Origin: Cognatilysobacter terrigena
Lineage (GTDB): Bacteria; Pseudomonadota; Gammaproteobacteria; Xanthomonadales; Xanthomonadaceae
NCBI RefSeq assembly: GCF_004361065.1
Contig: NZ_SELT01000007.1
Span: 1-64,000, forward strand
Length of the DNA stretch: 64,000 nucleotides
Reading direction: 5' to 3'
A program made the position numbers and the translations under genes. Positions within the stretch are counted from its first letter, which is position 1, and each line of letters begins with the position of its first letter. The notes under the pieces were generated by a model that was given only the letters and a program-made list of their open reading frames with translations, had not been told where the DNA came from and did not search any database. Shown here one piece after another: positions 24,048-28,407 of this stretch.

Positions 24048-24385
24048 CCGCGCGCGTCCTCCGCGGCCCCGCCGTGACGGCGTCCCGCCCCTGGGGCGCC
24101 GTCCCCGCCGCCGACTTCGGCGACATCGCCGCGAGCATCCACTGGACCGACGCCGCTTACCCCTGGCACGTCAACGACGGCGCCGAGCTGTTCGTCGTCC
24201 TCGACGGCCAAGTGCTGATGCAGTGGCGCGCCCACGACCGGGCCCCGGTCGAGGACACCCTTCTGCATGCCGGCGACGTCTGGTCGGGCCGCGACGGCGT
24301 GGTGCATCGCGCCATCCCGCAGGGCGAGGCGCGGGTGCTGGTGGTGGAGAGGCGGGAGGCGGATGTACTGGTGGACGGGGCTTAG
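24044..24385 (+). CDS. Single-domain cupin protein
   Basis: 113 residues. A beta-barrel cupin pattern is visible: YPWHVNDGAELFVVLDGQVLMQW (first motif, with WHVNDGAE) and LLHAGDVWSGRDGVVHRAIP (second motif, with a His). No further domain. Cupins of this size are often sugar-, antibiotic- or small-molecule-binding proteins; the ligand is unknown. Overlaps the preceding small ORF by 4 bases and may be LysR-controlled. Confidence 0.8.
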   Translation: MTARVLRGPAVTASRPWGAVPAADFGDIAASIHWTDAAYPWHVNDGAELFVVLDGQVLMQWRAHDRAPVEDTLLHAGDVWSGRDGVVHRAIPQGEARVLVVERREADVLVDGA

Positions 24386-24408
24386 TCCACGCTGGCTAAC
24401 ATCGCCGC

Positions 24409-24960
24409 ATGGACAGCAGCCTCCTGACACCGCGCTATCGATTGCGACTGGTCGTCCCGGAGGACGAAGCCCATTACGTCGCCTTGTATCGCGATCCGGA
24501 CGTGATGCGGGCAATCGGCCCGTTACCCGACGTCGAGCACCTGCGCGCCGCATTTGGTCGGGTGCGACGCCATAACACCGCATCGAAGCCAGGCCACCGC
24601 GTCTGGGCGATTCGCGACCGCCAAAGCGAACGACCCATCGGAATTACCGCCCTGTTGCGTGCGGGTGGGCGTGCCGAGCTTGGAATCATGCTGCTGCCCG
24701 GGGTATGGAATCGCGGCGTCGCGAAAGAAGTTTTCCGGCCGCTTCTGGATCACGCCTTCGGACCGATGGGTTTGGACGTGGTCGATGCGGAGCGTCGCGA
24801 TGACGAGCACGCAGTGGTCATCGACCGTTTGCTGCACCCCTTCGGATTTCTAAACGCGGACCCCACCGCTCCGGGCCTCCGCCGCTGGGCCCTGTCTCGA
24901 GCCGCATGGCACAGCGACTGCGGACGGCCGGCGATTGGCGCGGAGCATCTATCGCGCTAG
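24409..24960 (+). CDS. GNAT-family N-acetyltransferase (RimJ/RimL type)
   Basis: 183 residues. RYRLRLVVPEDEAHYVALYRDPDVMR is the typical N-terminus of RimJ/RimL-like GNATs, and ELGIMLLPGVWNRGVAKEVFRPLLDHAF carries the acetyl-CoA binding motif A, though the usual Q/RxxGxG loop is altered to PGVWNRG. Two GNAT beta strands follow. Substrate unknown. It ends 30 bases before the borosin-like methyltransferase gene, so they may share a transcript; a tailoring role is possible but speculative. Confidence 0.8.
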   Translation: MDSSLLTPRYRLRLVVPEDEAHYVALYRDPDVMRAIGPLPDVEHLRAAFGRVRRHNTASKPGHRVWAIRDRQSERPIGITALLRAGGRAELGIMLLPGVWNRGVAKEVFRPLLDHAFGPMGLDVVDAERRDDEHAVVIDRLLHPFGFLNADPTAPGLRRWALSRAAWHSDCGRPAIGAEHLSR

Positions 24961-24990
24961 GGTGGCCGGGTCGTTGAAGGGGAGCGACTC

Positions 24991-25854
24991 ATGTCCACGC
25001 CGCCGGGGAGCTTGGTGTGCGTGGGGCTCGGGATGATGTTGGGAGCGCATCTCGGACCGCGCGCACGCAATCAGATCGAACAGGCCGACGTGGTATTCGT
25101 CGCGGCCTCGGACGCGCTCGTCGAGTTGTGGCTGCAGGAGATCCGGCCCGACGCCCGCAGCCTCCAGCCGTTCTATGCGGAAGGCAAGCCGCGTCACGTG
25201 ACCTACCGCGAGATGACGGACGCGATGCTGGATGAAGTGCGCGCCGGCCGACGCGTCTGCGGTGCCTTCTACGGTCACCCGGGCGTGTTCGCAAAGGTTC
25301 CTCACGACGCAATCGCGCGCGCGCGGGATGAAGGCTTCGATGCCTCGATGGAGCCTGGCGTTTCTGCTGAGGACTGTCTGTACGCGGATCTGGGCATCGA
25401 TCCGGGCCACGTCGGCTGTCAGCATTTCGAAGCCAGTCAGCTGCTCTTCTACCGGCGTCATGTCGATCCGTCTGCCTATCTCGTGCTATGGCAGATCGGC
25501 CTCGTCGGCGATCGGAGCCACCGCCGCTTCAGCACATCCGCCGCGCACCGCGACCTGTTCGTCGAGCGTTTGTCCGAGTGGTATCCACTCGAGCACGAGT
25601 TGATCGTCTACGAAGCGCCGACGTCACCGATTGAATCGCCGCGCGCGGATCGTCTTGCGTTGTGTGATCTTCCCGGCGCTGAACTCCGCATGTGTTCCAC
25701 GCTCGTCGTTCCACCCGCGCGATCCATGGTTCCTGATACGGACATGCTCGCGCGTATCGCGGCGCTCGACGCTGGCGCGAAAACCGCCCGATCCGATCCC
25801 AACAGAACTGATGTTCCCACCGCCATCCAGAAGAGAGGCCCGTTCCATGTCTGA
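24991..25854 (+). CDS. Borosin-type peptide alpha-N-methyltransferase (SonM-like)
   Basis: 287 residues of the tetrapyrrole-methylase (SAM-dependent class III) fold, but matched to the peptide backbone N-methyltransferase branch. GSLVCVGLGMMLGAH at 6-20, FYAEGKPRHVTYREM at 61-75 (active-site Tyr/Arg region), YGHPGVF at 94-100, MEPGVSAEDCLYADLGIDPG at 120-139, FEASQ at 146-150, WYPLEHEL at 197-204 and YEAP at 207-210 follow the order of the split-borosin enzyme SonM of Shewanella as I know it. It would methylate backbone amides of a partner precursor; the gene immediately downstream overlaps it by 8 bases and is the candidate. GGGGAG lies 7 bases before the ATG. The last ~25 residues are a polar tail. 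Main alternative: an uncharacterised tetrapyrrole methylase paralogue. Confidence 0.88.
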   Translation: MSTPPGSLVCVGLGMMLGAHLGPRARNQIEQADVVFVAASDALVELWLQEIRPDARSLQPFYAEGKPRHVTYREMTDAMLDEVRAGRRVCGAFYGHPGVFAKVPHDAIARARDEGFDASMEPGVSAEDCLYADLGIDPGHVGCQHFEASQLLFYRRHVDPSAYLVLWQIGLVGDRSHRRFSTSAAHRDLFVERLSEWYPLEHELIVYEAPTSPIESPRADRLALCDLPGAELRMCSTLVVPPARSMVPDTDMLARIAALDAGAKTARSDPNRTDVPTAIQKRGPFHV

Positions 25855-26122
25855 AGCGATCCGGTTCCTCGAAACACTTGCGTGCGACCCCCGCGCCGAC
25901 GCGCGGGACTTCGAAGCCCTTCGGACCCTGCCGGCGGAGATGCGCCGTGCAGTCCTGCGACGCGATGCGTCGGGGCTGGCGGGTCTATTGGGCGGACGCA
26001 CGACGATGGCCTGCGCCATCATGCTGCCGGACAACGAAGAGCCGGCCGACGCGCCTTACGAGCCCGAAGATGTTCCCGAGGAGCCGGGTCGCCCGTCGGA
26101 AGGCGTATCGATGGCAGCCTGA
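25847..26122 (+). CDS. Candidate split-borosin precursor peptide
   Basis: 91 residues. The ATG at 25847 has AGAGAGG 8 bases upstream and overlaps the methyltransferase 3' end by 8 bases, so synthesis is coupled. Residues 1-50 are a compact helical leader (AIRFLETLACDP ... LRRDASGLAGLLGG) of the kind called a borosin binding domain. Then comes a short hydrophobic stretch TTMACAIML at 52-60, the likely methylated core, and an acidic Pro/Glu-rich tail (DNEEPADAPYEPEDVPEEP) to residue 80. No enzyme motif. Assignment depends mainly on context with the methyltransferase; core boundaries and methylated positions are inference. Confidence 0.75.
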   Translation: MSEAIRFLETLACDPRADARDFEALRTLPAEMRRAVLRRDASGLAGLLGGRTTMACAIMLPDNEEPADAPYEPEDVPEEPGRPSEGVSMAA

Positions 26123-26130
26123 GCAGGTAT

Positions 26131-26163
26131 GCTCGGATGTCCGGAACGTCCGGACATCCGAGC
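26131..26163. promoter_or_regulatory. Perfect 14-bp inverted repeat / hairpin
   Basis: GCTCGGATGTCCGG and CCGGACATCCGAGC flank AACGT with no mismatch, 8 bases after the precursor stop and 23 bases before the GGDEF start codon. There is no T-tract, so it is either an RNA hairpin protecting or uncoupling the precursor message or a dimeric operator for the next gene. Confidence 0.6.
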
Positions 26164-26186
26164 GGCTTCGCCGGTATGCGTGACCT

Positions 26187-27989
26187 ATGAAAGCTCTCAG
26201 GCTTTGCTTTGTTCTGGTCGTCGTCATCGGTGCGTTCGCGCCCGGCATGGCACCGGCTACTGACGCGAGTCAATTGCTCCGTCGGGCGGACGAGGTCCGC
26301 AGTTCGGACCCCGCGACGTTCAATCGGCTATTGACGCAACTCGATCAGCTGCAGCCCAAGCTGACGGCCGCCCAAAAGCGCCACCTGCAGCTGCTCGATG
26401 CGTATCGTGATTCCATCGCGGGTCGCTACGACGAGGCGATTCGTTCGTCGTTGGCCCTCTACGAGAACGCACCCGAGATCGAGCTGAAGTACCGGGCCGG
26501 TCTCCTTGTCGCCAACGTTGCAGCCGTAACGCGCGACTTCGGCCTGGGCTTGCGCTACCTCGAACGCTCCCTCGAACTCGAACCGAAGCTTACGGATCCG
26601 CAGCTGCGCCAGCACGGCTACGGCGTTGCAGCTGCGCTCTATAACCAATTCGGTCAGTACGAGCTCGGCGAGAAATACGCAGAGCGCATGCTCGCCGAAG
26701 GCGCCACCGGTCGAAACCGCTGCGCCGCGAAGCAGTTTCGCGCTGAAGCGCTGCTGGGCTTGGGTCGTCTTGTCGATTCCGACGCGGAAATTCAAGCTGC
26801 GATCGACGACTGCGCGAGCCAGAAGGAAGCGATTTTCGCGAATCTGATCCGTCGGACGCTTGCCCAGCGATGGGCGGCCAATGGAGAGGTCCGGCGTGCA
26901 GTTGCTCTGCTGGAAGCCAGTCTTCCCGAAGTGATGGGGACGCATTACACGCGCCTGATCGGTGAAATACGCAGCCTGCTGGCCGAATATCGCTTGAAGC
27001 TCGGCAACGAAGCTGCAGCGGAAGCAGATGCGCACTACGTTGCGACGATCGAAGGCCAGGACGCGCAATGGTTGCCGAGCGTTACGGCGCATCACGTTCT
27101 TTACGAAATTGCGTTGCGTCGAGGCGATAGTGCGAAGGCGCTCGACGAATACCGCAAATATGCCGAGGCCGAACGTGCGCGCCTCGACGACATCAAGACA
27201 CGCGAATACGCGTTTCAGCTGAGCCGGCATGAGCTCAGCCAGAAAAACCAGTCGATCGCGCTGTTGAAGAGCCAGAACCAGTTGCTGTTGTTGCAGCAGC
27301 AGGCGACGCGCGCTTCCGCGTGGAACACCCGCCTTGCCATCGCCCTTCTCCTCGTCCTCGTCGCTTCCGTCGGCTACTGGGGCTGGCGCGCGCGGCGGAT
27401 GCACGGGTCACTTCGCACTTTGGCGGAAACGGACGGACTCACCGGACTCTCCAATCGCCGTCATTTCCGCGCACGCTCCGAAGCCGCGCTCGCACTCTGT
27501 GCACAACGCAAGCGCCCCGCCTGCGTGTTGCTCTTCGACCTCGATCACTTCAAGCAGATCAACGATCAGTGCGGCCATTCCTCGGGCGACTGGGTGCTGC
27601 GGGAGGTCGCGCGCGTCGGTCGGCTGCATTGCCGCGAGCAGGATCTGTTCGGGCGCATCGGCGGCGAGGAGTTCGCGATGACGCTCGTCGACTGCGACGC
27701 GGAAGCGGCGATGCGCACGGCCGAGGCCTGCCGTCGCGCGATCGCCGGGATCGACGCCAGCGTGGCCGGCTGCGGGCAGCCGGTCGCCGCCAGCATCGGC
27801 GTGGTGACGACGTCGGTGTCGGGCTACGAGTACGAGGCGCTGATCGCGCACGCCGATGCCGCGATGTACCGGTCGAAGGTCGCGGGCCGCAATCGCGTGA
27901 CGCTGTACGAGCGTCCCCCGGTGCCGCAGCCGGGCGTGGTCCCGGCGATCGACCGCCGCAACGCCGAGGCGATGCTCAAGCAGTACTAG
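26187..27989 (+). CDS. TPR-containing membrane diguanylate cyclase (GGDEF)
   Basis: 600 residues. Signal peptide (1-24), then about 300 residues of TPR-like helices (for example DAYRDSIAGRYDEAIRSSLALYENAP, YNQFGQYELGEKYAERML), a coiled linker rich in Gln/Leu (NQSIALLKSQNQLLLLQQQ), one membrane helix near 379-400 and a cytoplasmic GGDEF domain. The active site is GGEEF at 492-496, and the inhibitory RxxD site is intact (REQD at 483-486, five residues upstream), so c-di-GMP synthesis with product inhibition is expected. The periplasmic TPR part would sense a peptide or protein. Starts 64 bases after the borosin-like precursor. Confidence 0.93.
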   Translation: MKALRLCFVLVVVIGAFAPGMAPATDASQLLRRADEVRSSDPATFNRLLTQLDQLQPKLTAAQKRHLQLLDAYRDSIAGRYDEAIRSSLALYENAPEIELKYRAGLLVANVAAVTRDFGLGLRYLERSLELEPKLTDPQLRQHGYGVAAALYNQFGQYELGEKYAERMLAEGATGRNRCAAKQFRAEALLGLGRLVDSDAEIQAAIDDCASQKEAIFANLIRRTLAQRWAANGEVRRAVALLEASLPEVMGTHYTRLIGEIRSLLAEYRLKLGNEAAAEADAHYVATIEGQDAQWLPSVTAHHVLYEIALRRGDSAKALDEYRKYAEAERARLDDIKTREYAFQLSRHELSQKNQSIALLKSQNQLLLLQQQATRASAWNTRLAIALLLVLVASVGYWGWRARRMHGSLRTLAETDGLTGLSNRRHFRARSEAALALCAQRKRPACVLLFDLDHFKQINDQCGHSSGDWVLREVARVGRLHCREQDLFGRIGGEEFAMTLVDCDAEAAMRTAEACRRAIAGIDASVAGCGQPVAASIGVVTTSVSGYEYEALIAHADAAMYRSKVAGRNRVTLYERPPVPQPGVVPAIDRRNAEAMLKQY

Positions 27990-28082
27990 GCCGGGCCGTC
28001 GGTCCGGCCTCCACCCGGCGTCGACATGCCCGCGACATGGCGGGCGTAGCGTTGGGCATCCGCCACCTGCGACCCGCCCGCC

Positions 28083-28340
28083 ATGGACGAGAACCGCCGC
28101 ATCGCGGATTACCTGCGTTCGACCGCCGATCTGACCGAGTACTTCCGCACCTGCAAGCAGACGGGCGACATGACGCTGGTCGAAAGCGCGCTGCGCGACA
28201 TGCCGGAGTGGGCGACCTTCCACGAGGTGAGGAGCGCGCTGGGCGCGGCCGGGCTGCGATTGAGCGTGGCGCCGCTCGGGCCGGCCGAAAAGGTGCTGCC
28301 GGAGTATTCGGAGCGCCGGAAGGGGCCGCGTAAGCACTGA
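28083..28340 (+). CDS. Small hypothetical protein
   Basis: 85 residues, soluble and charged. The central part SALRDMPEWATFHEVRSALGAAGLRLSVAPL looks like the last helices of an XRE-type DNA-binding domain (antitoxin-like proteins often end in ALGLRLSV), but the helix-turn-helix itself is not evident and no toxin gene is adjacent. Function not assigned. Followed by a bidirectional terminator shared with rpmG. Confidence 0.65.
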   Translation: MDENRRIADYLRSTADLTEYFRTCKQTGDMTLVESALRDMPEWATFHEVRSALGAAGLRLSVAPLGPAEKVLPEYSERRKGPRKH

Positions 28341-28407
28341 TTCGATGCGTCGGCAGACGTCGCCGCATGCGGACGTCGAACCGCGCGTCGTCAACATCGC
28401 ACCCAAC

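Follow-up and report, generated by a model that had tools for sequence, protein, structure and literature searches.

A very likely type IV split borosin operon with a sensor diguanylate cyclase gene in Cognatilysobacter terrigena

The window considered here, that is, the whole stretch of 64,000 nucleotides of Cognatilysobacter terrigena that was analysed (from a parent genome of 3.22 Mb in 88 contigs), very likely carries a type IV split borosin operon, an assignment made from sequence alone and in which methylation itself is inferred. The sequence-only reading that preceded this analysis had proposed a methyltransferase together with its peptide substrate, and in this it stopped one gene short: the conserved unit comprises the enzyme, the precursor and a TPR-GGDEF sensor, and the sensor is likely to be part of a functional unit with the other two. 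That a receptor-like gene is conserved next to those for enzyme and precursor provides a direct, testable functional hypothesis, namely that the locus is a split borosin whose methylated peptide would be the ligand of a periplasmic receptor setting c-di-GMP levels, a model that, taken as a whole, could as easily prove wrong as right.

The methyltransferase and its precursor

The first gene of the unit (24991-25854, + strand) encodes a protein of 287 aa, identified by PDB and Pfam searches and by residue comparison as a SonM-like peptide backbone alpha-N-methyltransferase, its methylating activity being inferred. Its best solved relative is SonM (E 8.2e-79, over enzyme residues 6-256), and the same PDB similarity search returns OphMA-type fungal chains at E 1e-47 to 4e-44 and the first tetrapyrrole methylase at E 2.8e-6. 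Residues Y62, R68, Y72 and Y94 correspond to Y58, R67, Y71 and Y93 of SonM, whose mutation lowers the catalytic parameters of that enzyme (PMC8429565), and they are invariant among 23 aligned enzymes. The genome holds a single copy of such a methyltransferase gene. The earlier claim of a SonM-like N-methyltransferase holds, given the SonM match and the four active-site residues kept, and so do the motifs on which it was based (YGHPGVF, MEPGVSAED, FEASQ and YEAP), all of them located in this 287-aa ORF.

The alternative that would undo this assignment is that the enzyme is a tetrapyrrole methylase of the CobA/CysG type and the small ORF behind it unrelated or spurious, and its support comes from the Pfam family assigned to the enzyme, TP_methylase (E 2.7e-20). 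Pfam also places borosin enzymes, as far as is known, under TP_methylase. Against this alternative stand the SonM match, the SonA match and the leave-window-out profile of the precursor (see below), and the fact that the top NCBIfam score for the enzyme is only 31.6 bits for a cut-off of 525, the NCBIfam tetrapyrrole models scoring it equally far beneath their own cut-offs. With these scores, and with a PDB E value that is merely 2.8e-6 for the nearest tetrapyrrole methylase, a CobA/CysG-type enzyme was rejected, and the alternative as a whole is all but excluded, being refuted as far as sequence allows. Grouping with CobA/CysG was what the sequence-only reading had named as its own refutation; the grouping was checked by similarity search, without a tree, and the enzyme is not refuted as a member of the SonM/OphMA type.

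A gene for a GNAT acetyltransferase (24409-24960, Pfam 3e-17) lies immediately upstream of the enzyme gene, and it is not among the neighbours common to at least 5 of 81 loci. Promoter and terminator scans over 24300-28400 returned no hits.

The second gene (25847-26122, + strand) encodes the split-borosin precursor, of 91 aa, identified by its family profile and its match to SonA. Its ORF and that of the enzyme lie in different frames and share 8 bases (25847-25854), as had been read earlier. The borosin-binding leader domain (25847-25993, + strand, around residues 1-49) is predicted to be helical, with five short helices within residues 3-47 in a model of the whole precursor of modest confidence (mean pLDDT 73.8). 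It is followed by the predicted core region TTMACAIMLP (26000-26029, + strand, residues 52-61) and by an acidic C-terminal tail or follower (26030-26119, + strand, residues 62-91), with 10 acidic residues and 1 basic among its 30. The helical leader (as a prediction), the hydrophobic stretch TTMACAIML (residues 52-60) and the acidic tail of the sequence-only reading were all upheld, and its proposal that the enzyme acts in trans to make an alpha-N-methylated peptide is supported by homology, the methylation itself remaining inferred. SonA is methylated at L63 and I65 (PMC8429565), and a rough alignment with these positions would place methylation of the core inside residues 54-60. No signal peptide is evident in the precursor, as judged by eye.

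Used as a lone query, the precursor retrieves nothing useful from Pfam, NCBIfam or the PDB. With a profile built from 31 precursors, SonA becomes the top PDB match (E 8e-7, over leader residues 1-57), the first chain other than SonA appearing at E 0.15. As the initial precursor profile started from 12 peptides chosen by eye downstream of enzymes, its matches at such positions are partly circular, and the independent checks on that seed are the SonA match and a profile that leaves the window out. In the latter, made from the sequences of 95 relatives, the precursor ORF of the window scores 37.1 bits (E 6.5e-11), while the runner-up among the 460 ORFs of the window of at least 45 aa reaches 9.5 bits and no shuffle of the peptide, out of 2000, exceeds 10.9. 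The SonA profile match and the leave-window-out scores argue, as far as sequence goes, against the small ORF being unrelated or spurious. Fold comparison is too weak to serve alone: SonA ranks first at an E of just 2.4, OphMA chains come lower (the model gives a weak match to the OphMA clasp region) and no match has E ≤0.001. Genome-wide there is one clear precursor, along with weaker matches, the best of which (C5:90046) has E 0.006 and 30% identity.

The sensor gene and its linkage to the enzyme

The third gene (26187-27989, + strand) starts 64 bases past the precursor gene, on the same strand, and encodes a sensor diguanylate cyclase of 600 aa with a signal-peptide-like start, a TPR-like domain, a transmembrane helix and a GGDEF domain; the genome has one copy of it. 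A predicted periplasmic alpha-helical (TPR-like) superhelix (26265-27176, + strand, around residues 27-330 of the model) precedes the transmembrane stretch (27336-27386, + strand, residues 384-400) and the GGDEF domain (27423-27896, + strand, residues 413-570, Pfam 1.6e-40). The latter has an intact G-G-[D/E]-E-F motif, in the form GGEEF at residues 492-496, and an RxxD inhibition site, REQD, at 483-486, from which diguanylate cyclase activity is inferred. Across a set of 120 sensors, GGEEF is found in 119 and GGDEF in 1; the RxxD site, kept in 103, is not universal. All 120 have the transmembrane stretch and 116 an N-terminal hydrophobic stretch, and Cys179 and Cys209 are kept in every one of them, a pair that would possibly suit a periplasmic disulfide.

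Pfam recognises nothing in residues 1-370 of the sensor (E up to 0.01), and what is said of this part comes from a confident structure model (pLDDT 90.3, pTM 0.84). Foldseek ranks six pheromone-bound Rap receptors at the top (E 3.4e-5 to 1.2e-4; TMq 0.57 for the first), followed by LGN, CCR4-NOT, APC/C, LapB, NprR and others. In VIA-align, eukaryotic TPR proteins lead, namely the degron receptor APPBP2 and APC/C (Z 25-28), with Rap, MalT, NprR and AimR in lower rows at Z 20-24 (the Rap complexes at 23-24). The predicted fold is that of a TPR-like superhelix, a generic one which by itself is no proof of peptide binding.

Between the precursor and sensor genes lies a perfect inverted repeat of 15 nt with a 3-nt loop and no T tract (26131-26163, + strand), present at this single site in the window. 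The fold z-score of the intergenic gap is -4.7, and the corresponding gap of another locus (L002) likewise folds strongly; the repeat may possibly act as an mRNA element.

Enzyme relatives were gathered in one scan of genome contigs, which found 124, the best 80 being kept: they come mostly from Rhodanobacter, Dyella, Frateuria, Arenimonas, Pseudoxanthomonas and Lysobacter, with single representatives of Shewanella, Aliiglaciecola and Bowmanella. All 80 have a sensor homologue directly downstream, encoded on the same strand and complete in 78; in L009 and L032 it runs off the end of the contig, and the remaining parts match the sensor profile at 8e-120 and 3e-110, respectively. A precursor-like ORF on the same strand (E ≤0.001) accompanies 79 of the 80, two bogus internal starts (L006 6237 and L008 6212) having been excluded from the precursor counts; the remaining relative, L072, has only a weak one (E 0.0087), which was not counted.

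Would this linkage survive in loci not selected by the enzyme? In genome samples searched separately for enzyme and sensor, the family sample (60 genomes) has the enzyme in 26, the sensor in 24, all of them within those 26, and neither in 34; two genomes, G022 and G043, have enzyme and precursor without a sensor. In the order sample (121 genomes), both are present in 56, the enzyme only in 1, the sensor only in 8 and neither in 56 (Fisher 1.6e-24, uncorrected for relatedness), and a same-strand sensor lies within 3 kb of 63 of 72 enzyme matches, being absent for the other 9. Genomes with a sensor and no enzyme thus amount to 8 of 64 in that sample. In the class sample (149 genomes) the enzyme is found in 4 and the sensor in 1, which is that of the window; beside the three distant enzymes (3e-53 to 2e-67) no sensor is encoded. 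Some enzyme matches of the order sample contain in-frame stops, apparently from alignment overrun past the gene end, and the two that were checked (L163 and L165) are intact.

The association may also take the form of a fusion. Of the 60 family genomes, 4 encode sensor, GGDEF domain and methyltransferase as a single reading frame, each time with a SonA-like precursor upstream, and Pfam recognises TPR_12, GGDEF and TP_methylase in one such protein. A fifth fused frame (L101), truncated by the contig start, retains GGDEF and methyltransferase only, with no precursor in the 6 kb examined. A different architecture is that of a 540-aa ORF with two methyltransferase domains (L161:3826-5448, TP_methylase in two stretches), adjoined by a weakly matching SonA-like ORF.

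Regarding other partners, no conserved protease, transporter or exporter, or second tailoring enzyme was found within about 5 kb among ORFs of at least 100 aa in 81 loci, the other clusters shared by at least 5 of these loci being opposite-strand ORFs or flanking genes common to 6-7 loci.

Precursor cores, their pairing with sensors and covariation

The cores of the precursors fall into two main classes. In class A, which includes the precursor of the window, the core is short and hydrophobic, Pro and an acidic tail frequently come after it, and 44 of 53 cores contain Cys; examples are MACAIMLPDNEE in the window, MICMLFPADDD in Arenimonas and VCCMMLP, in tandem twice, in L007. Class B, found in Dyella and some Rhodanobacter, has a pattern resembling MQxPQxxQxPGHEEDE. 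Classes were assigned by a text rule, which wrongly put L104 (core GGRVRMWCVLVVPQEG) in class B, where it was kept. In another family of the order, ORFs of around 58-62 aa located ahead of sensors end in sequences such as LVCMILPDDDDEE. They match the profile only weakly (E 0.001 to 0.2); if they are precursors, the Cys-Pro-acidic pattern would be old. Separately, L089:2902-3336 encodes, upstream of an enzyme, a precursor with four repeated cores (SCLVFTPEE, TYFCWVATPEE, TYFCAVNTPE and PYFCGVLTPEE) that looks, as an inference, like a natural multi-core borosin precursor; no sensor was found alongside it in that stretch.

The nearest upstream neighbour of the sensor is a precursor in 108 of the 120 sensors, a set in which most loci were selected by enzyme and from which duplicates and L093, L118-L120 and L125 were excluded. 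Unfused pairs number 104, with no more than 299 nt between the matched precursor and sensor stretches. The other 12 sensors stand behind another sensor (5), at a contig edge (1), without a precursor (5) or behind the enzyme (1). The stretches examined hold 29 of the 30 sensor matches of the family sample, and for 25 of the 29 a precursor is the next feature upstream. Units may also be repeated: in L121 a sensor preceded by two precursors is followed by another sensor preceded by three; L122, L123, L096 and L166 hold similar repetitions, and in the 12 kb of L151:3221-15120 a single enzyme gene is accompanied by three precursors and five sensor-cyclase genes. An alternative order, with the sensor ahead of the enzyme, is seen in L156, L157, L159 and L160, whose SonA-like precursors end, for instance, in HAYDS or HAHD.

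Sensors that have no enzyme nearby limit the generality of this pairing. Among 28 enzyme-free sensor loci examined, the precursor is clear in 6 (L124, L126, L131, L134, L135 and L137), weak in 1 (L152) and missing from 21 (L091-L093, L127, L158 and 16 of L131-L150); the order sample contributes 36 sensor matches without a same-strand enzyme within 6 kb, and the counts cover 23 of these. The lone sensors of L131-L150 may respond to other ligands, or else to a peptide made elsewhere, both being mere possibilities. Precursors travel with sensors, yet many sensors stand alone, and strict pairing is doubtful in view of these lone sensors, the 8 sensor genomes without the enzyme and the 9 enzyme matches with no sensor near.

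If peptide and sensor were ligand and receptor, how would their sequences vary with respect to each other? Covariation was evaluated on 101 sets of core, leader, enzyme, sensor domain and GGDEF domain (from the 104 unfused pairs, 2 being without enzyme in the stretch and 1 lost to alignment filters) by partial rank correlation of distances with 500 permutations. With enzyme, GGDEF and leader held constant, the partial r between core and sensor distances is 0.32 (p 0.002, the permutation floor), whereas the values are -0.04 for core and GGDEF, -0.11 for core and enzyme and 0.06 for core and leader, each given the others (n=101). The correlation appears within each class (A, 0.27, n=53, p 0.002; B, 0.21, n=48, p 0.006), and in class B the core follows the enzyme as well (0.28, p 0.002). 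Sequence length was rejected as the source of the signal, because 163 random sensor columns, equal to the GGDEF count, still give a mean partial r of 0.28 (lowest 0.12); after thinning to 92, 70 and 51 sets, the values are 0.35-0.41. By linkage alone, it is the leader that would be favoured, as it lies nearer to the core than the sensor does.

In the whole set the signal peaks in sensor columns 151-210 and 211-300 and is lowest in 31-90 and in the stalk (301-360), although the region tracking the core differs by class, being highest at 211-300 in A and at 31-120 in B. In L123:1299-5855, two adjacent sensor-cyclases are separated by distances of 0.34 in the sensor domain, 0.02 in GGDEF and 0.67 in the core, possibly as if the cyclase part were held uniform while specificity drifts, and in all five within-locus pairs the divergence of the sensor exceeds that of the GGDEF domain. 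Partial Mantel tests can exaggerate significance, and the covariation between core and sensor, which fits a ligand and its receptor, is not proof of it.

A possible alternative is that this is an ordinary split borosin whose product has another role (as antibiotic, metallophore or protease inhibitor), the TPR-GGDEF protein sensing another cue and only regulating the operon or the use of the product, without binding the peptide. In its favour are the 21 of 28 enzyme-free sensor loci without precursor, the resemblance of TPR folds to many kinds of protein, the existence of some enzyme-precursor pairs without a sensor and the inference that the Cys of the core and the acidic tail would also suit metal binding. 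It fails, however, to predict that it is the core, and not the leader, that covaries with the sensor domain, as opposed to the GGDEF domain of the same protein, and that precursor-sensor units occur in tandem or apart from the enzyme. A second alternative, considered unlikely, is that the sensor binds the unmethylated or whole precursor, or that it forms a membrane complex with the enzyme and controls methylation rather than reading its product. The TPR-GGDEF-methyltransferase fusions, in which the enzyme would lie on the side of the sensor predicted to be cytoplasmic, and the tracking of the enzyme by class B cores speak for it; against it, the enzyme is a separate gene in most loci and the covariation of the whole set is with the core, not with enzyme or leader.

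Proposed route and relation to known systems

In the preferred reading, that of a mature peptide sensed by the TPR-GGDEF protein, the SonM-like enzyme would bind the helical leader of the separate precursor and, with SAM as methyl donor, methylate backbone amides of the core MACAIMLP in trans, a step supported by homology. The following steps are inferred: the core would be released, and either it or the precursor would get to the periplasm by a route that remains unresolved, no dedicated protease or exporter having been found nearby; the peptide would then bind the groove of the exported TPR-like domain (as suggested by linkage, covariation and fold); and binding would alter the activity of the cytoplasmic GGDEF domain, inferred from its sequence, and with it, up or down, the level of c-di-GMP. 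The cell would in this way be reading a signal of its own making, or gauging how much of the peptide it produces. That the peptide is the ligand of the sensor is an inference made without binding or c-di-GMP data, and the evidence leaves it evenly balanced.

A bolder reading, to which we give rather less credence, would be that backbone-N-methylated ribosomal peptides are pheromones in Gram-negative bacteria, sensed by co-encoded periplasmic Rap-like TPR receptors that control c-di-GMP, the precursor-receptor pairs having duplicated and diverged together under a shared methyltransferase. To our knowledge, no peptide-to-c-di-GMP pathway of the kind that this implies has been described. Should the peptide prove to be the ligand, ligands would become available for a diguanylate cyclase family without a known cue, and the purified sensor domain would serve as bait for the mature peptide; should the pheromone reading be true, a large group of split borosins would gain a function. 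As of 2021, no type IV pathway had yet been linked to a final natural product (PMC8429565).

With the SonM-SonA system of Shewanella oneidensis, also a type IV split borosin (PMC8429565), the locus shares a separate enzyme with an adjacent precursor, a helical borosin-binding leader and a C-terminal core. Unlike SonA, which has 71 aa and its core at its very end (62-71; PMC8429565), the precursor of the window continues past its core with an acidic tail of around 30 residues, and class A cores usually contain Cys; the locus of the window further holds the TPR-GGDEF gene. The fused fungal borosins of the OphMA type have a related methyltransferase (~1e-45), although there enzyme and core are fused and here they are separate genes. 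The link between GGDEF and borosins is not wholly new, at least one type having it already: in PMC11395268, the Figure 1 legend lists a GGDEF domain among borosin architectures, possibly in reference to the TPR-GGDEF-methyltransferase fusion type, and gives no sensor domain, linkage count or signalling role. In the open-access literature searched (most subscription papers being outside its scope), no borosin paper with diguanylate cyclase, c-di-GMP or Xanthomonadales was found, and GGDEF appeared only in PMC11395268.

A comparison can be drawn with the RRNPPA receptors (Rap, NprR, PlcR and AimR), all-helical TPR superhelices which the sensor resembles in its predicted, generic fold and three of which, Rap, NprR and AimR, are among its structural matches. 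Genes for RRNPPA receptors and their pro-peptides are, as far as is known, adjacent, as those for sensor and precursor are here. RRNPPA are cytoplasmic receptors of Firmicutes (PMC9765709), whereas the sensor domain of the window is predicted to be periplasmic and tethered to GGDEF, and the precursor lies upstream, lacks an evident signal peptide and should be backbone-methylated. The sensor was considered for membership in RRNPPA and is not placed there, given its predicted signal-like start, transmembrane helix and GGDEF output as opposed to cytoplasmic proteins with DNA-binding or phosphatase functions; it remains possible that the sensor works like an RRNPPA receptor without belonging among them.
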